From Prevotella sp. (lineage in GTDB: Bacteria > Bacteroidota > Bacteroidia > Bacteroidales > Bacteroidaceae), in assembly GCA_017449675.1 (NCBI GenBank), contig JAFTFG010000023.1, forward strand, positions 1-62,608: a stretch of 62,608 nt of DNA. Direction: 5' to 3'. The notes beneath the pieces are model-generated. The model made no database searches, had not been told where the DNA came from, and worked only from the letters and a program-made list of their open reading frames with translations. Made by a program: the position numbers and the translations under genes. Positions 6,063 through 51,889 of this stretch are shown here, one piece after another (within the stretch, counting starts at the first letter, position 1; every line of letters starts with the position of its first letter).

Positions 6063-7355
6063 TTACTTAATCACATACTTCTTACCGTCCTTGATGAAGA
6101 TTCCCTTTGTGGGAGCAGTCACCTCCTGACCTTGCAGGTTATACCACTTACCGTCAGCCTTTGTAGCGGTGACAACTGAGATGCCTGAGGCAGAACCAGA
6201 AGGAACCCATACTACTGTTTGCACGGACATTTTAATAGAACCATAGATAAAGAAGGTACCTGCTTCAGTAACTTCACCCTTCAATTCTACCAAGTCCTTT
6301 TTGGCTTCACTCTTGGACAAAACCGAATAACTCTTATCTTCTTTCTGGAAACCCAAACGAGTTTCACGTGCAGAATTGTTATCATTGGCTCTTGCAACCA
6401 CATACAGAGTGCCTGCTTCTGTTACATCCAATGCCATATAGTCAAGATTCATGCCTGTGGCCGCTACACGACGAGTACCCATTGCACCTTCTATGGGATC
6501 ACTTGACTCAGTTGCCGCACCTTCTAATGTTATCTTGTGCGTCATATTCAGTTCTGTTCCATTGGAAAGCGTGAAAGTCTTCTGAGAACTTGCAACATCC
6601 TCAACAGTCATTTTATGTCCAGATTTGAGTTGGAGATAGAGATTATTCAAATTCTCAGTGGCACTATATTCTGTTCCTGTTGTAAGGCCTGCAAAATCCC
6701 AGACAGTATTAGAAGAGCCTTGGCTACCACCACCTTGGCTACCACTACCTGATACAACTTGATCCTTTGTCAACACGGTTCCGTTCTCATCCTTAACGGT
6801 GATTGACGTAATATTTACACCACCTACTGTCGATTTCAAGGTAACATCACCATCAGTTGTTACGGTACCTGTACCATTCTGGTCATTCTTATCAACATCA
6901 TCGCCAGGAGTTCCCGTCTGATCAGTCACAGCATCAAATTTAGATATATTAGAAAGATTTGTAGTAGTCAGATAACGAGTATAGTCAGACCCCGAAGCTG
7001 TTTTCCAAACTACTTCTACTGTATAGTCTTTCTTAAGAGCAGGAATAGTAATAACAATATCCTTACCATTCAATTGAAGATTTGTAGAAACACGAATCTT
7101 GCCTTGTTTATTATCATTAGCAGCACCAGCCTTAAATTTCAGACCTTTTGTTAAAGCCAGTTCCTCACTACCCAACATCAAAGCCTCATTGTTGGTTGCA
7201 AGAAGATAATTCCATCGGTTGTCAGCCCATGCCCAGTGTGTTTCATCCGAACTATAAGAATCCGTTTGTGCAACAGTCCCTTTAAAATTCCAGGTTTGTG
7301 CCTGAGCACCCACAGCCATGATGGCCATAGCAATCAGCGTAAAGATTTTCTTCAT
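6063..7355 (-). CDS. Secreted protein of unknown function with C-terminal sorting-like motif
   Basis: About 430 residues with a signal peptide (M-K-K-I-F-T-L-I-A, cleavage near A-Q-A-Q). An in-frame ATG lies 6 bases earlier and another 36 bases earlier; this start gives the most typical signal peptide. The mature part opens with T-W-N-F and has a second V-W-D-F-A-G-L start near residue 220, each beginning a beta-rich segment. Between them is a low-complexity G/S/D/N linker. The last 25 residues read Y-N-L-Q-G-Q-E-V ... K-G-I-F-I ... G-K-K-Y-V-I-K, the tail seen on five other proteins in this window. I do not recognise an enzyme. It is probably a surface or secreted glycan-binding or adhesive protein. 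It is monocistronic and divergent from the hybrid regulator. Confidence 0.7.
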   Translation of the reverse strand: MKKIFTLIAMAIMAVGAQAQTWNFKGTVAQTDSYSSDETHWAWADNRWNYLLATNNEALMLGSEELALTKGLKFKAGAANDNKQGKIRVSTNLQLNGKDIVITIPALKKDYTVEVVWKTASGSDYTRYLTTTNLSNISKFDAVTDQTGTPGDDVDKNDQNGTGTVTTDGDVTLKSTVGGVNITSITVKDENGTVLTKDQVVSGSGSQGGGSQGSSNTVWDFAGLTTGTEYSATENLNNLYLQLKSGHKMTVEDVASSQKTFTLSNGTELNMTHKITLEGAATESSDPIEGAMGTRRVAATGMNLDYMALDVTEAGTLYVVARANDNNSARETRLGFQKEDKSYSVLSKSEAKKDLVELKGEVTEAGTFFIYGSIKMSVQTVVWVPSGSASGISVVTATKADGKWYNLQGQEVTAPTKGIFIKDGKKYVIK

Positions 7356-7524
7356 AATCATTCGTTTTAAAGTTATTATTATAATTAGCAATTTTGTTCA
7401 CCAGCATATCCCTGAACAATCTTTACCCTAAAGGACCAACCTATCAACCAATATTTACTAACATTAACAAAATTCACAGATAGCAGCCACTGCGCCATCT
7501 CAACGCATATTTAATCATTTGCTG

Positions 7525-20144: not shown

Positions 20145-21656
20145 TTATTTAATAAGATATTTCTTTCCTTGGCGAATGACGACACCCTTGCGGGAGTCTG
20201 TCACCACCCTACCTTGCAGGTCGTAGGCAGGAGTCTCTACACGCAGGTCTGTCAGCAGGGGGCGGATACCTGTTCCGGGGGTCATCTCCGCACCAGATAC
20301 TTTCTTAGCCTCCGCCACGGCTGCGGCATAGTTGCTGAAATCACAGCCCTTTCCTGAATAGTTCTTCTGTTGGAGGTAGGTCGTTGTATTGGCGGCGAAC
20401 ATACCGTCAGCCTGGCGGGGCAGGGTGAGACGGCTGACGCTGGTACTGACATAATCGGTGTTGACAGTGGCAGGACTGGTCCATCCGCTTCCTGTCCATG
20501 TGAATGAGTTATCCGTGATGGTATTCTTGCCGTCGGCACCATCCAACCATGTCACGTGCTTGCCACTGCCATGCAGCGACAGGTTATGATCCAGTTCATG
20601 ACCGTAGCCGTTGACATCCGTATTCTCCGAGGCGGCAGGTCCTTGTCTGTTCACCATACTATAATTATAGGCACCGCTGCCTGAAGAGGTATTATAATAG
20701 AAATGGATACCCCCCAGGTGATGGTTGGAGTAAATGCCGTTCGACTTGTTCTGGACAGCCAGACAGTGATACACCTGATGCTTGGGAGCGCCATCGGCCG
20801 GTAATGAGATACTGGTGGCACTCATACCATAGCCGCCGGCCTTGAAGCCATTACCGTCCTGCCGTTTGTTACCCTCGGCATCATAGCCGTTATGATAGGC
20901 AATGCTATAACAGAAGGTCACAGGCGAGAAACAGTTGATAAGGTCAAAGCCGTCGTCGGAGTTGTTCCACGCCCGGCATCCGATGAAGATATTATTCTCC
21001 TGACCTTCCAGTACATGACAGCCAAACCCGTCGTTCTGACCACCAATACCATTCTCCGACACAGGGTCGTAGTTGTTATAGCCGTCACAGTTGACAAACA
21101 GGTTATGGTGTGAGCGTCGTGTCAGATAGAAACCGATACCCATCCCGTCGTGGCAGGCAATATTCTCAAAGGTATTATACGAGCCATCGGTCACACGGAA
21201 GTTCTCGCTCTGCGTATGACTGGTGATATTCACCTGAATACCAGTCACCTCGAAGTTGCGGAACACCAGATACTGACCACTGACCAGGAAGGCGGTCACA
21301 CGATAACCTGTCGGATTGACGGCCGACATATCGAACACGGGACGCTGCCCGTTCTCTGTCAGTCCGATAAAACTGATGGGCTGTCCCTGCGTCCCCTTCT
21401 GGCTCATATCAAATATGATCTTATAGGGATCCGTCGTCTTAGAGATCTGTGACTCCGTAATAATATAGGTACCCGGCAGGATATACACCCTGTCGCCTGC
21501 CTTCACCACCTTCTGGGCTGCACCCAGTGTGGCGAAAGCGGTCTCACGTGTCGTCCCACTGTTGGCATCATTACCCGCCGTAGAGACAAAATAGTCAGTG
21601 GCCGACATCTGGAGTGCCGTCACCACTGCTATTGCCATAACACCTAATCTTTGCAT
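20145..21656 (-). CDS. PL9-type pectate/polygalacturonate lyase, secreted
   Basis: 503 residues from the ATG of M-Q-R-L-G-V-M; the frame extends 63 bases upstream but that part overlaps the promoter. A signal peptide precedes a right-handed beta-helix with the PL9 hallmarks: N-N-S-D-D-G-F-D near 232-238 (calcium-binding aspartates) and D-G-N-G-F-K near 265-270 (catalytic lysine). PL9 enzymes cleave polygalacturonate or related pectic backbones by beta-elimination with calcium. The last 25 residues carry the tail motif (Y-D-L-Q-G-R-V-V ... K-G-V-V-I ... G-K-K-Y-L-I-K), suggesting export to the surface. First gene of the SusC/SusD operon, so it defines pectin as the target. Confidence 0.88.
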   Translation of the reverse strand: MQRLGVMAIAVVTALQMSATDYFVSTAGNDANSGTTRETAFATLGAAQKVVKAGDRVYILPGTYIITESQISKTTDPYKIIFDMSQKGTQGQPISFIGLTENGQRPVFDMSAVNPTGYRVTAFLVSGQYLVFRNFEVTGIQVNITSHTQSENFRVTDGSYNTFENIACHDGMGIGFYLTRRSHHNLFVNCDGYNNYDPVSENGIGGQNDGFGCHVLEGQENNIFIGCRAWNNSDDGFDLINCFSPVTFCYSIAYHNGYDAEGNKRQDGNGFKAGGYGMSATSISLPADGAPKHQVYHCLAVQNKSNGIYSNHHLGGIHFYYNTSSGSGAYNYSMVNRQGPAASENTDVNGYGHELDHNLSLHGSGKHVTWLDGADGKNTITDNSFTWTGSGWTSPATVNTDYVSTSVSRLTLPRQADGMFAANTTTYLQQKNYSGKGCDFSNYAAAVAEAKKVSGAEMTPGTGIRPLLTDLRVETPAYDLQGRVVTDSRKGVVIRQGKKYLIK

Positions 21657-21703
21657 ATTTCGATCTAGTAGTCTGTTTTTGTTATTATCTCGATTTCTCA
21701 ATG

Positions 21704-21711
21704 CAAAAATA
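21704..21711 (-). promoter_or_regulatory. -7 element of the PL9/SusC/SusD operon
   Basis: The minus strand reads TATTTTTG, matching TAnnTTTG, 47 bases upstream of the PL9 start codon. No consensus -33 is seen, which fits a promoter that needs an activator such as the HTCS. Confidence 0.5.
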
Positions 21712-21771
21712 CAAAACATCAGTTATATGGCACTTTAATCTAATTCAAAAGTCTATACTTTCGTACGCAGA

Positions 21772-21854: not shown

Positions 21855-22037
21855 TTAAAAGCCTATCCCTAAGATGCTGTTCACATCATCCAGATCCGGC
21901 AGATCTTCCATCTCGCGGCCCAGTGCGTCATTATTGTCTCCAGAACCTCCGTTGAGTCCTACACTTGCTGCCAACATCTGACGGGGAGCAATCATTACGA
22001 TCTTTGTCTCAGGCTGGATATATTGTTTCTTTATCAT
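21855..22037 (-). CDS. Micropeptide 1 (60 aa), paralogue of those at 30475 and 48254
   Basis: 60 residues starting M-I-K-K-Q-Y-I-Q-P-E-T-K-I-V-M-I, then M-L-A-A-S, a glycine-rich stretch and D-N-N-D-A-L-G-R-E, with an acidic tail ending in G-I-G-F. There is no signal peptide or clear membrane helix. The ATG at 22037 is chosen over the GTG one codon earlier because AGGAGG lies at ideal distance before it; such a strong Shine-Dalgarno sequence is unusual in this phylum. It begins 15 bases after the stop codon of the secreted protein at 22053-23294, so the two are surely co-translated. Two paralogues in this window sit in the same place after similar secreted proteins. Function unknown: a peptide precursor, a chaperone-like partner or a regulator are all possible. 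Confidence 0.7.
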   Translation of the reverse strand: MIKKQYIQPETKIVMIAPRQMLAASVGLNGGSGDNNDALGREMEDLPDLDDVNSILGIGF

Positions 22038-22211
22038 CACTGTGTCCTCCTTTTATTTAAGTATGACCTTTTTACCATTCACGATATAGAGACCCTTGGT
22101 GGGATGTGCCACACGCTGGCCGTTGAGGTTATAGTATACATTATCTATAATGGTCTTCTGACCTTCTACGACACTGATACCTGTTGCTCCGCCTCCGCCA
22201 ATGCTGAGTTC
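21917..22211. repeat. Near-identical direct repeat, copy 1
   Basis: The 3' end of the secreted-protein gene, its Shine-Dalgarno sequence and the start of micropeptide 1 are almost base-for-base the same as 30498-30789. The copies have the same orientation and are about 8.6 kb apart. Outside this segment the two gene pairs diverge strongly. Confidence 0.85.
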
Positions 22212-23294
22212 TATGCCACGAGAGGTCGCAGACACGTTGGTTGTCGTGCGAAGGAATGCTTTGTTGGCAGCCAGATCACCTGACCCAGTTGTATGCTTGA
22301 ATACGGCGTTACTGGTACCATCAGGCAACAGGATATAGTTGTAGTTCGTCTCATCACTACCTGTATTGATTGTCGTGGTCGCAGGTAAAGCATAGGTAGC
22401 CAGGTTAGCCACCAGCAGATTACCAGAAGCGGTGATTTGGTCCTCTACTGATTTCAGTGTCAGCACATCATCGGCGGCACCCTTGATAATAACACCCTGA
22501 CAGGCGGGAATACGGTTGCTCTCGGTTGCAGTCAATGTCACATCAGAACCATTTTCTGATGATGCATAATAGACTGCCGGAGTAGTACTTTTCGTATGAG
22601 CAGCAATGGTATAGGTATGGGGACCACTAAAGGTTACATAGCCGCAGGAAGGGATCGTGACAGTCTTTGAAATCTGTCCAGCACTTTCTGATACTACATA
22701 TTTAACACCATAGATTGTACAGGATGCCTGAGAAGTACCATTCATGCCAACGATGTGACAAATTACCTTACCACTACCCGCCGTGATCTCAGCCTGGGAG
22801 ATACTGACAGTAATCATTTGGAAATCTGTTTTGGTATTGTCTGGCAACTTAGCATCCTCGGTTGTGCCCTTGAACACCTTTACTTCTCGGCCACTGGCGG
22901 AATTACGGCAAAGCACATATATCTTACCCGGCTTTGTCACACGAAGTGACATACGGCCACCTGCACCTGTATCACTGGCAGCACCAGAATAGCCTGCACC
23001 ACGAGTCCCATTGAAAAACAGACCGGTATAATAGCCTGAAGGGAAAATAACATCATCACCATCTTTGGTTGCATTGGTCAAACGAGCCATGACCGAAGTC
23101 ACGGTTCTTGTTCCTAATGCCACATACAACCCGTCATAGTCAATCACATTATCCGTCCCTGTAACATTAAGGTTTTTGCCATACTGACCAAACAGCCACG
23201 TCGCTGTAGCACTATTAGCCACATCAGCGGCCCATGCTCCTAATGGCAGCAGGGCCAAGGCGCACAGCGCCAATTTGAGTAATTTTGTTTTCAT
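22053..23294 (-). CDS. Secreted modular protein with T-W-x-F domain, second beta domain and sorting-like tail
   Basis: 413 residues with a signal peptide (cleaved near A-W-A-A). Domain 1 runs from T-A-T-W-L-F near 30 to Y-G-V-K-Y-V near 205. Domain 2 starts at G-Y-V-T-F-S near 218 and contains I-P-A-C-Q-G-V-I-I-K-G and A-N-K-A-F-L-R-T-T. A tail follows with Y-Y-N-L-N-G-Q-R-V ... K-G-L-Y-I-V-N-G-K-K-V-I-L-K. The same domain order forms the C-terminal part of the PL4 lyase at 48421, so this looks like that binding/anchoring module without a catalytic part. Close relative of the protein at 30631 (same N-terminus and tail, different middle). No enzyme motif was recognised; a glycan-binding or surface-layer role is inferred. 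Confidence 0.75.
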   Translation of the reverse strand: MKTKLLKLALCALALLPLGAWAADVANSATATWLFGQYGKNLNVTGTDNVIDYDGLYVALGTRTVTSVMARLTNATKDGDDVIFPSGYYTGLFFNGTRGAGYSGAASDTGAGGRMSLRVTKPGKIYVLCRNSASGREVKVFKGTTEDAKLPDNTKTDFQMITVSISQAEITAGSGKVICHIVGMNGTSQASCTIYGVKYVVSESAGQISKTVTIPSCGYVTFSGPHTYTIAAHTKSTTPAVYYASSENGSDVTLTATESNRIPACQGVIIKGAADDVLTLKSVEDQITASGNLLVANLATYALPATTTINTGSDETNYNYILLPDGTSNAVFKHTTGSGDLAANKAFLRTTTNVSATSRGIELSIGGGGATGISVVEGQKTIIDNVYYNLNGQRVAHPTKGLYIVNGKKVILK

Positions 23295-30474: not shown

Positions 30475-30615
30475 TTACCACTCGTCATCCGATTCTCGGC
30501 CCAGTGCGTCATTATTATCTTGAGAGCCTCCAAGTCCAAGACTTGCTGCCAACATCTGACGGGGAGCAATCATTACGATCTTTGTCTCAGGCTGGATATA
30601 TTGTTTCTTTATCAT
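30475..30615 (-). CDS. Micropeptide 2 (46 aa), paralogue of micropeptide 1
   Basis: 46 residues, with its first 25 identical to micropeptide 1 (M-I-K-K-Q-Y-I-Q-P-E-T ... M-L-A-A-S), then a shortened glycine stretch, Q-D-N-N-D-A-L-G-R-E, and S-D-D-E-W at the end. It has the same strong AGGAGG ribosome-binding site and the same 15-base spacing after the stop codon of the upstream secreted protein (30631-31854). It is too short for usual gene callers. The shared middle motif D-N-x-x-A-L-G-R-E with the other two copies suggests selection on the peptide itself rather than only on the DNA. Function unknown. Confidence 0.72.
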   Translation of the reverse strand: MIKKQYIQPETKIVMIAPRQMLAASLGLGGSQDNNDALGRESDDEW

Positions 30616-30789
30616 AACTGTGTCCTCCTTTTATTTAAGTATGACTTTCTTACCATTCACGATATAGAGACCCTTGGTGGGATGTGCCACACGCTGGCCG
30701 TTGAGGTTATAGTATACATTATCTATAATGGTCTTCTGACCTTCTACGACACTGATACCCGTTGCTCCGCCTCCGCCAATGCTGAGTTC
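30498..30789. repeat. Near-identical direct repeat, copy 2
   Basis: Matches 21917-22211 with few differences, in the same orientation. Together the copies bracket the vapE cassette and the ATPase gene. Recombination between them would remove about 8.6 kb. Confidence 0.85.
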
Positions 30790-31854
30790 CAACATTCTAG
30801 ATGCTCCAGCATCAATTGTTGTACGCAAATAAGATTTGTTGGCAGCCAAGTTACCAGAACCCGTCGACTTCTTGAATCCCGTTGTTGAGAGCGTGTAATT
30901 GTAATTCGTACCATTAGTGGCAGGCAATGCATATGAGCCTATATTTGCAATAAGTTTATTGCTGGCTGCATTTGTTTTATCGGCCTCAGTTATATCTGAT
31001 TCTCTGATATTCTTCATTGTAATAGTCTCTGATGTTGGTGTTGTACCAATCAGAACAACTCCAGTATTTGCGGGTATATGGTCTATTTTCTTTAACGTAG
31101 CACTGGTTGATGATACTTCAGAAACCACGTAGGCTGTATACCCCGTGGGAACCCTATAGTTACAAGCAGACGAAAAAGTAGCATAGCCTTCAGTTACACT
31201 AACACTAATGTCATGCTGACTTAAATCAGTTGCATCTTTTGTAGGTACGAATTTTACGCCATATAGAGTCCAATCGGTTTCCTCACATCCTATGAAATAG
31301 CGCTTATTCGCAGTTACATCACAAGAAAGTAGTATCCAGTCAGATGTAGTGCGTGAGGCGGTTGTCTTTGAGGTGGCACCTTCATAAATCGTAACCGTCT
31401 TACTGGCTGACTTTGTGTTTACAAGTACATACAACTTTCCTGCTACGATAGGTTTAACACCTGCTAGCATATACTGAGATGTATTGTCTATAGTCACGTC
31501 TTGGGAAGCACGTGAGGCTGCATTGAATTTCAATCCTACATATTCGCCTTTTGTGAACGGGGTTACCCCTCCTACTTCTGGTGCAGTAGCATTAGGCATG
31601 CTTACTGATGCTGTGGCTGTAATAGACCTAATTCTATCCGCATTAGCATCACCTACACAGAAATACAACTTGTCATAGATGTATAACTGTCCCTGAGTAC
31701 CTTCTGTCGTTGTAATGGTCGACACTGTGGCCTCCTCATAAAACTGATTAAAAAGCCATGTTGTTGTTGCTCTCGGCTGTAATTCTTCCGCCCATGCCCC
31801 CATTGGCAGCAGGGCCAAAGCACTAAGTGTTAGTTTAAGTAATTTTGTTTTCAT
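30631..31854 (-). CDS. Secreted modular protein, paralogue of 22053-23294
   Basis: 407 residues with the same signal peptide type (M-K-T-K-L-L-K-L ... G-A-W-A). Domain 1 runs from T-T-T-W-L-F-N-Q-F near 30 to L-Y-G-V-K-F-V-P-T near 210. Domain 2 begins G-Y-A-T-F-S and contains I-P-A-N-T-G-V-V-L-I-G and A-N-K-S-Y-L-R-T-T. The tail is the same Y-Y-N-L-N-G-Q-R-V ... K-K-V-I-L-K. The ends are nearly identical to the protein at 22053 while domain 1 is strongly diverged, a pattern of diversified binding faces on a constant chassis. No catalytic motif. It is followed by micropeptide 2 in the same transcript. Confidence 0.75.
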   Translation of the reverse strand: MKTKLLKLTLSALALLPMGAWAEELQPRATTTWLFNQFYEEATVSTITTTEGTQGQLYIYDKLYFCVGDANADRIRSITATASVSMPNATAPEVGGVTPFTKGEYVGLKFNAASRASQDVTIDNTSQYMLAGVKPIVAGKLYVLVNTKSASKTVTIYEGATSKTTASRTTSDWILLSCDVTANKRYFIGCEETDWTLYGVKFVPTKDATDLSQHDISVSVTEGYATFSSACNYRVPTGYTAYVVSEVSSTSATLKKIDHIPANTGVVLIGTTPTSETITMKNIRESDITEADKTNAASNKLIANIGSYALPATNGTNYNYTLSTTGFKKSTGSGNLAANKSYLRTTIDAGASRMLELSIGGGGATGISVVEGQKTIIDNVYYNLNGQRVAHPTKGLYIVNGKKVILK

Positions 31855-48253: not shown

Positions 48254-48424
48254 CTACTCTCCGAAAAGGACACTATTCACTTCTTCGAGTTCATCCAGTT
48301 CACGCCCCAGTGCCGAGCCATTATCCTGAGAGTCGGATGACAAGCCGGCAGGAGAGCCGCATATCAGAGAGGCCGGAATTATTTCTATAATCGTATATGC
48401 TGGTTTAATATAGATTGCTTTCAT
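48254..48424 (-). CDS. Micropeptide 3 (56 aa), overlapping the PL4 stop codon
   Basis: 56 residues: M-K-A-I-Y-I-K-P-A-Y-T-I-I-E-I-I-P-A, then S-L-I-C-G-S, a G-L-S-S-D-S-Q-D-N-G-S-A-L-G-R-E core, and a tail E-E-V-N-S-V-L-F-G-E that recalls D-V-N-S-I-L-G in micropeptide 1. Its ATG (48422-48424) overlaps the TGA of the PL4 lyase gene (48421-48423), so it is translated by ribosomes finishing the lyase. The sequence is diverged from micropeptides 1 and 2 but keeps Y-I-x-P, D-N-x-x-A-L-G-R-E and the tail, which argues for a real, conserved peptide. Function unknown. Confidence 0.72.
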   Translation of the reverse strand: MKAIYIKPAYTIIEIIPASLICGSPAGLSSDSQDNGSALGRELDELEEVNSVLFGE

Positions 48425-51400
48425 TTGATCATGACTTTTTTTCCGTTGATGATGTATAATCCTTTCCTAGGTTGTGCTACACGCTGACCGGACAGATTAA
48501 ATATGATGCTATTCGCCTCAGATGCCGGACTGAGTACTTCATTGATTCCAGTAGAACCACCAAAGTTCAGGTCTAGGCTCCGTGAGGGACTGGAGGCTTC
48601 CACTGTGGTACGCAAGAACGCTTTCGAAGCAGCGAGCATGCCCATACCGGAAGATTTCTTAAAGGTCGGACCGGCAGCCAGTGTGTAATGATAATAACTT
48701 CCATAAGTGGCAGCCAACGCATAGTCAGCCATATTAGCCACCAGATAGTTGGTACCGACAGCGTCGGCTGTGGCTGTCGAGGTCAGCATATAACTACCCT
48801 CCTCACCTTTCAACACGACACCAGTACAAGCAGGAATAGTGGTGATAGGATCCATCGTCACCTCTGTAGGGTTAACTGCTGACACCTTATAAGCAGTCAG
48901 ACCTTCCGGAACAGTATAGTTCTGTGCAGCACAGAAAGTAACATATCCTGCCGACGTAATGTCAACCGACATGGTTGCAGATGTCTCACTGTCAGGAAGG
49001 AAGGCGGCAGCAATCAAATAGAAACTCCCGTTAGCCTTGAGCATTAACGGACCGGCAGCAGTCGCATGATAACTGATGACCTTAACCTCTTTGTTTGTAA
49101 AACTATAGGTGGTAGCATCATCCACGCCAATAAAGTTAAAAGTAAATGTCCGGGCGGCATCAGGAGCCTGTACCAAGGCGTAGAATGTACCGGCCGTCGT
49201 CACATCCAAACCAAAGGCATCAGTATTGTGTCTCTCAGAAGATGCAGGGTAGTTCTTGGCAACCGTTCCTGCACCACCGCTAAAGAACACAGACGGCACA
49301 GTACCATGATAGGATACGCCACCTATCTCCTTGGCTTCTGACAATGTGGAGGTCTTAGCCTGAACAGTATGATTGTTATTCACATGCAGATAAAGTCCGT
49401 TGTAGTCAAGCATGGCACCACTACCGCTTCCTTCGACGAGATAGTCATTGACGGCATACTGATTGAAATTCCAGTGCGATGTGGCACCTACGGCAGACTC
49501 CGGATCTTCTGTCGGTACAAACTTGACATAGAACACATTCACATCCTTGCCGTAGGCATCGATGAAGAAGGTACCGCCCTCTGTAGCCTGATACTCCAAC
49601 ACATCCAGACGAGCAGTCTTGGCAGCAGCAACGGTCAGTGAAGCCTCTTTGACGACCGTACCATTCAAGGCTAAACGCAGTTTATTCCCTTCCGCCGGAG
49701 AATCCGTCGACTGGAATGCGACATAGACCATGCCGGGGACTGTGGTCTGGAAGCCGATATTCAGACGTGACTTCTCCACTACATCACCATTGGCAGCAGG
49801 CAGAAGAGTATAGTCATTTTTAGTCTGGCTCTTCAACGTCACGAAGTTCTGACTGGAATAGGTTGTACCGTCACTGAACGTGAAACTGCGCGTGTCCTTT
49901 CCAGGTACTCGCATAGGTATGGAGAGACCTGCGGCCCCACGAAGATAGAAGCCCGTATTGTTATAATTGGTAATGGCTGTCAGTCCTGATGAATTATCGG
50001 TAGTCTCACCATTGAAGCCCATGGAAGCCTCTTCTGTAATGACCTGTACGGTGGAGTTCTTCTTTTCCAGTTTAATGATATCATACAAAACACCGCCCAA
50101 GTCATTCCCCAACTCGTCAGTACCTAACCCCCACACATTCAGATAAAGGTTGTTCTCACCCACTTGCAGTCTGGAAACAGGAATATCAAAGACTATCAAG
50201 GAGTCGCGTCCTGCCAATGTAGCACTGCGTGACACGGAACCGTCATGATTCGGACGGAACACACCAATACCCGAACTCGACGAAGTCTCATTCGAGCGCA
50301 CGGTAATCTTAGCATTAGCCGCACCTGCAGTAGCAATCGTCAATCGTAATGGATAAGTGGGTAGTTCTGTCAGATTATATTTGATGGTCCATGTACCATT
50401 ATGGCATTGAGCATAATACCAATCGTTAGCAGGAGTACTCGTTCCAACAGTATATGTCAGATTTGTCGGAACGCTATTCCACTGACCATACGCACGACGC
50501 TGTCCGCTCATCTTATATCCTGCCGCTAAATGATCTGCCTCACCAATCTGCCACAACACCTCATCGTAGCGATCCGCATCAGGGGTCCACGTCATAGTTC
50601 CCAGCGCAGTAGTATTCCCATCGCTGACACTTACTCCATCCTGAATGAAATAGCCAGTGGCAGAACCGTTTAGTGCATAGGCATAGAGGGAATAGTCACC
50701 TGCGCGTACATTATTAACATTAAAATTACCTTCTGTATCTGTCTCTGCCCAGAACTGATAACCGTCACCTTGCAACATGGGTTTAGAACCCGGTTGTGCC
50801 AAGACAACCTGCATCTTTGTCGTTCCGAAATAGGCAGCATCTTCTGCTGACATTGTAATTTTCCCTGTCACCGTACCACGCTTCTTACATTCTGTATCGC
50901 GCAGCCAACTATAGTTAGGCCATGTGCTTTGCTCAGTAGCAGCCCGTTCCTTTGCGTCGGCAACCATTTGGCTATGTGCAGTAGCAACATCCGAGGATGT
51001 TGACTGATTGACATAGATCAGATGAGGACCATAGAGTTTCTTCTGACCGCTGGCATAGGTCACCCCGGCACCACCAAAGTGATTACCATGAAAGTGACGC
51101 AACAGAATAGGGGTCGTCTCTGTGGCATGTACTGTCAGATCTTGGCGCATCACGCCACCATTCAGCCACTCTGTAGTGGGAGTAATCATCCAAACACCCA
51201 CCTGATCACCCATCAGACCATGAACCGCATCATCTTTCTGAAAAGCAGCATAGTCATATTTTGTATAGATGGACGCATCAGACAATTGGTAGGTAGCATC
51301 AGTCACCTTAGTACCGCCCGCTATTTCCGACGGTGTAGGCAACGTCCCTTGAGCCTGCTCGTTGACGTAAGCATAATTAAATAAAGTTGGAGACACACGG

Positions 51401-51864
51401 AGTCCCATACGAGCCTCACTCAAGGAACCAGACGACGCAGATCCTTCTACCTGTACATAATGATAGACTCCCGCTACACCGCGACATACGATATAGTCCA
51501 TCACCCAACGGATACCGCTACGCCAGTTCGTCACATACTGAACCTCCACTACATCGACAGTATTCTGCTTCACATAGAACTCACTAATCGAATAGTTGGT
51601 ATTTGTATTGTTCATGGCAAAACTAAAATAGCCTTTTGCCCCGGTACCATTGATCAACTGTACTGAGTTACTAAAATTACCATCGCCATCCTTGTATAGC
51701 AGGAAAGAGGTAATTTCTCCACTACTGTTAATATACACAGACACCAGATCATTTCGTATCGTACAATTACGATCACTACGTTCCAATGTCACATCACCGT
51801 TGACTGCAAAGGTTCCAACCCATGCCATCGCCAACAAAACAGTTAAGTACAACTTGATCTTCAT
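48421..51864 (-). CDS. PL4 rhamnogalacturonan lyase (long form) with modular tail
   Basis: 1147 residues; AAGGA lies just before an ATG at 51870 and 6 bases before the ATG at 51864, so the latter is preferred. The signal peptide is followed by a PL4 unit (about 25-600: A-Y-V-N-E-Q-A-Q-G, H-G-L-M-G-D-Q-V-G-V-W, G-T-V-T-G-K-I, W-Q-I-G-E-A-D-H). A beta-rich domain follows (about 610-790), then a T-W-x-F-type domain from S-H-W-N-F-N-Q-Y near 795. A second tail domain starts at G-Y-V-T-F near 970, with I-P-A-C-T-G-V-V-L-K-G, and the sorting-like end is F-N-L-S-G-Q-R-V ... K-G-L-Y-I-I-N-G-K-K-V-M-I-K. The tail should anchor or display the lyase at the cell surface, in contrast to the short paralogue at 44651. 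Confidence 0.88.
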   Translation of the reverse strand: MKIKLYLTVLLAMAWVGTFAVNGDVTLERSDRNCTIRNDLVSVYINSSGEITSFLLYKDGDGNFSNSVQLINGTGAKGYFSFAMNNTNTNYSISEFYVKQNTVDVVEVQYVTNWRSGIRWVMDYIVCRGVAGVYHYVQVEGSASSGSLSEARMGLRVSPTLFNYAYVNEQAQGTLPTPSEIAGGTKVTDATYQLSDASIYTKYDYAAFQKDDAVHGLMGDQVGVWMITPTTEWLNGGVMRQDLTVHATETTPILLRHFHGNHFGGAGVTYASGQKKLYGPHLIYVNQSTSSDVATAHSQMVADAKERAATEQSTWPNYSWLRDTECKKRGTVTGKITMSAEDAAYFGTTKMQVVLAQPGSKPMLQGDGYQFWAETDTEGNFNVNNVRAGDYSLYAYALNGSATGYFIQDGVSVSDGNTTALGTMTWTPDADRYDEVLWQIGEADHLAAGYKMSGQRRAYGQWNSVPTNLTYTVGTSTPANDWYYAQCHNGTWTIKYNLTELPTYPLRLTIATAGAANAKITVRSNETSSSSGIGVFRPNHDGSVSRSATLAGRDSLIVFDIPVSRLQVGENNLYLNVWGLGTDELGNDLGGVLYDIIKLEKKNSTVQVITEEASMGFNGETTDNSSGLTAITNYNNTGFYLRGAAGLSIPMRVPGKDTRSFTFSDGTTYSSQNFVTLKSQTKNDYTLLPAANGDVVEKSRLNIGFQTTVPGMVYVAFQSTDSPAEGNKLRLALNGTVVKEASLTVAAAKTARLDVLEYQATEGGTFFIDAYGKDVNVFYVKFVPTEDPESAVGATSHWNFNQYAVNDYLVEGSGSGAMLDYNGLYLHVNNNHTVQAKTSTLSEAKEIGGVSYHGTVPSVFFSGGAGTVAKNYPASSERHNTDAFGLDVTTAGTFYALVQAPDAARTFTFNFIGVDDATTYSFTNKEVKVISYHATAAGPLMLKANGSFYLIAAAFLPDSETSATMSVDITSAGYVTFCAAQNYTVPEGLTAYKVSAVNPTEVTMDPITTIPACTGVVLKGEEGSYMLTSTATADAVGTNYLVANMADYALAATYGSYYHYTLAAGPTFKKSSGMGMLAASKAFLRTTVEASSPSRSLDLNFGGSTGINEVLSPASEANSIIFNLSGQRVAQPRKGLYIINGKKVMIK

Positions 51865-51889
51865 AAACATTCCTTTTTTATTTTTTTTG

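Follow-up and report, generated by a model that had tools for sequence, protein, structure and literature searches.

What do the short frames do that directly follow genes for secreted proteins in Prevotella sp.? We addressed this question in a stretch of 62,608 nucleotides (the window; contig JAFTFG010000023.1 of assembly GCA_017449675.1), for which a preliminary description had reported three such frames. All three are present on the minus strand, at 21855..22037, 30475..30615 and 48254..48424 (frames 1, 2 and 3); they encode peptides of 60, 46 and 56 amino acids (aa), respectively, and do have in common the reported motifs YIxP and DNxxALGRE. We consider it likely that the frames are dispersed precursors similar to those of ribosomally synthesized and post-translationally modified peptides (RiPPs), each encoded beside an exported protein and processed in trans by a shared machine composed of a RiPP recognition element (RRE), a kinase and a peptidase. 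A single machine, encoded elsewhere in the genome, probably handles all of the frames.

Leader and core of the frame family

The three window frames are part of a large Bacteroidaceae family and not a trio. In their own genome, which is 54% complete, eight members were found by single-sequence search and 12 by profiles. Among 39 related genomes searched, the family was found in 23 of the 24 genomes of the same genus (weakly in one of them, G003, E 0.011), and one of the 15 genomes from other families of the order gave a frame match, with an E of 0.15. At the family rank, 94 of 121 Bacteroidaceae genomes, representing 17 of 22 genera, have frames (E threshold 0.01). With E values up to 1 allowed, neither Pfam nor NCBIfam gave a match to the three window frames, and a comparison of 31 members with both collections yielded nothing near a cut-off. 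A weak match of one of these 31 members to lasso_cyano (E 0.097) was the starting point for the RRE search but does not count as evidence.

The conserved parts of the family, i.e., a KKxYxxP motif and an LLAGS-like box (with Ser in 67 of 77 cases), lie within the N-terminal ~25 residues, and the remainder is variable. This is the arrangement of conserved leader and variable core expected of RRE-dependent precursors. The YIxP motif of the window frames lies in the family-wide KKxYxxP, whereas ALGRE turned out to be confined to a few members and was discarded as a family motif. Leader and core also differ in composition: the mean charge of the core is -6.9, compared to +1.8 for residues 1-26 (94 sequences), and a core Trp is located within the last 14 residues in 65 of 97 cases, a number reached by none of 2,000 core shuffles. 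It should be noted that the six loci with frames in a set of 20 were partly fetched for their co-location.

In frame 1, which is also a row of the profiles, the leader MIKKQYIQPETKIVMIAPRQMLAAS with its YxxP motif and LAAS box is placed at 21963..22037, up to a putative leader/core boundary; the variable acidic core, stop codon included, is assigned to 21855..21962 from the translation and the core charge of the family. The frame 2 leader (30541..30615) is the same, being identical in 75 of 75 nucleotides (nt), and the frame 2 core ends in DDEW. The frame 3 leader, MKAIYIKPAYTIIEIIPASLICGS, is placed at 48353..48424, with a boundary suggested by the family alignment. These features, and all those given below for the window frames and their partners, are on the minus strand.

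The ratio of nonsynonymous to synonymous substitution rates (dN/dS), a check proposed in the preliminary description, stayed below 1 for each of the 12 pairs whose dS exceeded 0.1 (frames 1 and 2 entering as a single pair); two pairs with dS near 0.03 had a ratio above 1, with one synonymous change apiece. Frames 1 and 2 differ by seven synonymous and 10 nonsynonymous changes in 46 aligned codons (dN/dS 0.36). These two frames are not independent, because a 299-nt block is 95% identical between them: the cassette at 21913..22211, which contains the C-terminal tail of the upstream gene, a Shine-Dalgarno-like site, the leader and part of the core, has a second copy at 30494..30789. Divergence of the two frames begins directly past the Ser codon of LAAS, and the sole BLAST match beyond the block is a 65-nt segment, 82% identical, at the starts of the two upstream partner genes. 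The limits of the block therefore indicate that the recognition parts are common, while the mature domain of the partner and the peptide core are different. The frames are short and their C-termini poorly conserved, as could be expected from chance or from an annotation artefact; set against the matches in 94 family genomes, a non-random genomic context and dN/dS below 1, such an origin has next to no probability in our judgement.

The RRE, kinase and peptidase genes

A PqqD-like protein with an RRE fold is encoded in 23 of the 24 same-genus genomes (single-copy in 21) and is absent from G017, a genome that is 92% complete; among proteins of solved structure, TfuB1 and TbiB1 are its closest relatives. 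In the own genome, the RRE gene is located on contig C29, together with genes for an ATP-binding cassette (ABC) transporter and for an HprK-like protein fused to a signal-peptidase-like (S24/S26-like) domain. A profile of this kinase-peptidase protein matched 23 of the 24 same-genus genomes, again missing G017, and two of the 15 genomes outside the genus; compared with Protein Data Bank (PDB) sequences, it gave weak matches, including phosphoenolpyruvate carboxykinase, Hpr kinase and LexA (E 0.1-0.3). Thus, G017 is jointly without frames, RRE, HprK-like kinase and S24/S26-like peptidase; another genome, G009, has kept both the frames and the machine. Across the 121 family genomes, 91 have frames and RRE, three have frames only, 10 have the RRE only and 17 have neither (a hand tally, with seven frame-negative genomes inferred by elimination); that is, the RRE expected of such precursors is present in 91 of the 94 frame-positive genomes and missing from 17 of the 27 frame-negative ones. 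With a stricter RRE threshold (E below 1e-20, picked post hoc), the corresponding numbers were 88, 6, 2 and 25 (p 4e-18).

The surroundings of the RRE were analyzed in the best 80 of 555 loci by query similarity, picked regardless of frames. The titles of these loci refer mostly to uncultured Prevotella, Prevotellaceae or Bacteroidales, many of them from ruminants; Prevotella histicola, Hoylesella marshii and Xylanibacter species are among the species named. Within 6 kb of the RRE, 77 loci encode the kinase and 76 the peptidase, 42 have an ABC transporter gene and 10 have a frame; a nucleotidyltransferase is present in seven of the 80 loci. About 1.6 linked frames would be expected, an estimate from roughly five frames per 3 Mb in which the background was not computed, and three of the 10 linked frames are weak matches (E 0.002-0.01). 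For example, loci L142 and L184 each have a frame, its tail gene and the machine genes collinear on one strand, and in G003 the sole frame match (locus L155) is 1.5 kb from the RRE, near a fusion of peptidase and ABC exporter. Of the jobs considered in the preliminary description, that of a peptide precursor is therefore well supported by the RRE-type leader motif, the co-occurrence with the machine and the partial linkage.

These data suggest the following scheme. A precursor would consist of a conserved leader of ~25 residues (KKxYxxP...LLAGS) and a variable acidic core, often Trp-ended, and its gene forms a tandem with that of a surface or secreted protein; the contig C29 machine (ABC transporter, PqqD-like RRE and HprK-like kinase/S24/S26-like peptidase fusion) would serve the dispersed precursors in trans. 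Homology to lasso B1 proteins and the fold point to binding of the leader by the RRE at YxxP. The kinase may then phosphorylate the peptide, the signal-peptidase-like enzyme may cut at or near the LLAGS box, which resembles a small-residue cleavage site, and the ABC transporter may export the core, bringing it out beside the co-expressed partner. The data demonstrate the frame family, the coupling of frames to genes for exported proteins, the arrangement of leader and core, the co-occurrence and partial linkage with the machine, and the fold of the RRE; the cleavage site, the modification, the export and any action of the peptide on its partner are what we infer. A wider generalization is possible, even if we would not expect it on balance: a general layer in Prevotella-like bacteria, in which one machine yields processed, possibly phosphorylated peptides, each co-expressed with a large lipoprotein or with a cargo enzyme of the type IX secretion system (T9SS), and active as a cofactor, inhibitor, anchor or signal, either on this partner or at the same surface. 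If processing in trans is correct, a large unannotated small-frame family of Prevotella-like bacteria represents the set of substrates on which one defined machine acts, and the coupling of most members to an exported enzyme or lipoprotein ties peptide processing to the outer-surface protein repertoire. The function of an orphan small-protein family would also become directly testable, as one RRE deletion should affect all members.

Part of this evidence would also suit an intracellular small phospho-protein, for which the RRE would be an adaptor to the HprK-like kinase and which would regulate or report the expression of its partner as a phospho-peptide, with neither cleavage nor export. The RRE is accompanied most regularly by the kinase (77/80 loci), the ABC transporter is near just 42 of the 80 RREs, and the cores are acidic. 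However, the signal-peptidase-like gene is an equally regular neighbour (76/80), which in G003 forms a fusion with an ABC exporter, and the leader and core evolve differently; we regard the phospho-protein explanation as rather improbable.

Several observations speak against processing of the frames in trans by a shared machine and should be weighed here. The linkage between frames and machine is an exception, because 70 of the 80 RRE loci have no frame detected within 6 kb (several are cut by contig ends), and the surroundings of 38 of the 80 RREs showed no ABC gene. The significance of the frame/RRE co-occurrence (Fisher p 3e-11) comes from a test that ignores phylogeny, and 13 of the 121 genomes are discordant for frames and RRE. 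The own-genome kinase scores 22.1 bits with HprK_rel_A (TIGR04352), compared to a cut-off of 200, and the Peptidase_S24 scores are 19.9 and 18.5 bits, compared to a cut-off of 23.3; the predicted structure of the kinase-peptidase protein has a mean predicted local distance difference test score of 55 and was not used. A search of PDB sequences with the leader profile returned no lasso leader, just unrelated phosphatase chains. For the transglutaminase-like B2 family (PF13471), there was no match over the cut-off in the 24 same-genus genomes, with sub-cut-off matches in G007, G011 and G022 and none in the own genome, which is 54% complete; no asparagine-synthetase-like cyclase was noticed beside the machine in the loci read, no search for that family being made. 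Mean core similarity is 0.05 for members with homologous partners versus 0.00 for those with other partners (144 versus 984 pairs). Leader similarity shows the same direction (0.32 versus 0.30), in part owing to evident recent duplicates; a tendency of cores to follow partners was not used as support for the precursor interpretation.

Comparison with known peptide systems

Lasso peptides have a YxxPxL leader motif and are handled with PqqD-like B1 proteins, and lasso RREs bind YxxP leaders. The bsf cluster of Bradymonas sediminis (PMC10368454) combines a lasso peptide with a split B1 (RRE) and an HprK-like tailoring kinase. The system studied here resembles these in its YxxP leader, discrete PqqD-like RRE and HprK-like kinase, as well as in the nucleotidyltransferase or ABC transporter of some loci. 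It differs in that the candidate leader peptidase is S24/S26-like and not transglutaminase-like B2, that reading of the loci revealed no cyclase (with no family search made), and that the precursors are many, dispersed and mostly beside a gene for an exported protein. The combination of chaperone and kinase is the same as in the HPr-rel-A system (TIGR04352, HprK-related kinase A, and TIGR04353, PqqD chaperone), but both models score below their curated cut-offs here; for TIGR04353, the own-genome PqqD-like protein reaches 27.8 bits, compared to a cut-off of 35. Because it resembles both lasso and HPr-rel-A systems but in each case lacks one of their defining features, we consider the system a variant of RRE-dependent peptide systems.

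Prochlorosins are produced by one machine in trans from many dispersed precursors, which have a common leader and variable cores. A single machine in trans for many precursors would be a similarity to our system, whereas the enzymes are others; we know of no pairing of each prochlorosin precursor with a surface protein. The substrates of peptidase-containing ABC transporters (PCATs) have double-glycine leaders. Such exporters are found in Bacteroidales RiPP clusters (PMC10352776), and G003 likewise has a peptidase-like domain fused to an ABC exporter, but with an S24-like peptidase and with LLAGS, not a double glycine, at the end of the leader. The G003 gene (L155:4662-6701) encodes an ABC exporter fused to an S24-like peptidase domain that scores below the Pfam cut-off, recalling the peptidase-containing bacteriocin exporters. 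In the titles and abstracts of the open-licence literature, we found no description of the frame family or of the pairing of frames with exported proteins, and the accessible parts of PMC8241843 and PMC7470986 have nothing on either. Two loci (L146:1413-4944 and L147:6838-10299) have a frame with a Cys-containing core upstream of genes for a radical SAM (S-adenosylmethionine) maturase, two RREs, kinase and peptidase; these clusters are compact and suited for heterologous expression.

Exported partners and type IX secretion

The genes upstream of the window frames encode a secreted protein of 413 aa (partner 1, 22053..23294), a secreted protein of 407 aa (partner 2, 30631..31854) and a rhamnogalacturonan-lyase-type secreted protein of 1149 aa (partner 3, 48421..51870; PF14683 and PF14686 above the cut-off, PF06045 below it). 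Judged by eye, all three have signal-peptide-like N-termini, and their C-termini are of one sorting-type tail kind, ...GQRVA.P.KGLYI.NGKKV..K; that of partner 1 is matched by tail profile A3, of which it is itself a row. The shared tail, the lyase-type partner and the close spacing had all been described correctly: the frames start 15, 15 and -4 nt from the upstream stop codon, with the overlap in frame 3 being ATGA. The Shine-Dalgarno-like AAGGAGG is located at 22046..22052, between the partner 1 stop codon and frame 1, and at 30624..30630, ahead of frame 2.

In the own genome, 11 of the 12 members are -4 to 48 nt behind tail genes. The 12th (L261:4275-4400, G000:C21) has no upstream tail gene and has a very short core with a TGA end. 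Conversely, the tail profile search of this genome gave 32 matches, and of 30 loci examined, 11 have a frame and 19 do not (by a profile check of all 30). Two genes in the window, 6066-7391 and 20145-21719, have a related tail (E 2.9e-10 and 8.4e-5) with no frame behind; thus, the coupling of frame and tail is selective.

Outside the own genome, we analyzed 92 same-genus members (own loci L039 and L061 excluded, three weak matches with E 0.002, 0.04 and 7.2 included). A tail gene is within 260 nt upstream of 46 members, a variant tail is upstream of seven, and 24 have a lipoprotein gene alone, within 200 nt downstream; two of the 46 have both neighbours. The remaining 15 have neither by this rule; three of them are at contig ends, and on inspection by eye some have a tail farther upstream (380-390 nt) or a lipoprotein start that escaped the rule. 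The controls were 2,025 ORFs (open reading frames of 35-110 aa, drawn from loci L069-L128 only), of which 26 have a tail gene upstream and 38 have a lipoprotein gene downstream. It should be noted that the count of 46 is partly seeded, since tail profile A5 contains tails found upstream of frames. The predicted enrichment behind tail genes is observed, but the partnership is not fixed as had been proposed, given the 24 frames that precede lipoprotein genes. In 19 further loci from other genomes, mostly the best-scoring frame matches at family rank, 14 of 21 frames are behind a tail by profile. Of 16 neighbouring lipoprotein-type proteins, two have a match to the fimbrillin-like family PF13149, three to other families and 11 to none at E up to 0.01.

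A ribosome-binding-like AGGAG or GGAGG precedes 18 of 55 tail-coupled members, none of 39 others and seven of 227 long ORFs, for which the first ATG was taken as the start, possibly wrongly. Among the tail-coupled frames of the own genome, seven of 11 have a strong Shine-Dalgarno-like site. Such sites, the close spacing, the stop-start overlaps and the class of frames upstream of lipoprotein genes would be consistent with translated regulatory frames that act independently of the peptide, by coupling or attenuation of neighbour genes. Amino-acid-level conservation across genera, the dN/dS below 1 of every pair with dS above 0.1 (12 pairs) and the tracking of a distant RRE locus would be unexpected for such frames, and we consider this role very unlikely.

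The same neighbourhoods could point to a helper in the export or sorting of proteins that have T9SS-type tails, acting on the tail or the cargo: 46 frames, plus the seven with variant tails, are behind tail genes, and Shine-Dalgarno-like sites are found at 18 of the 55 tail-coupled frames. SprA was detected in 37 of 39 genomes. The likeness to the T9SS type A sorting domain (TIGR04183) concerns the partner and not the peptide, and is weak: with E values up to 1 allowed, it matches seven of 27 tails (best E 0.0011) and, among the three window partner proteins taken whole, none. The joint absence of SprA and of tail matches (E threshold 0.01) from G009 fits a function of the tail in the T9SS. 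However, 10 frame matches were obtained in G009 with E values up to 1, six with an E of 0.004 or lower; of four frames examined, three are directly upstream of lipoprotein genes and one is downstream of one. G017, in turn, has SprA and 18 tail genes, and the frame search gave nothing there even with E values up to 1 allowed. These two genomes already separate the peptides from the T9SS. Together with the 19 of 30 own tail loci that are without a frame and the lipoprotein genes downstream of 24 of the 92 frames, they disfavour the helper role, which was among the jobs suggested in the preliminary description and which we consider quite unlikely.

The nearly complete same-genus genome G009 (loci L042, L063, L118, L125 and L128) appears to have lost the T9SS and the cargo tails jointly. 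A second tail type, with an NVAGQQ(V/M)K end, is found upstream of some frames (L041, L045, L062, L064, L083 and L107).
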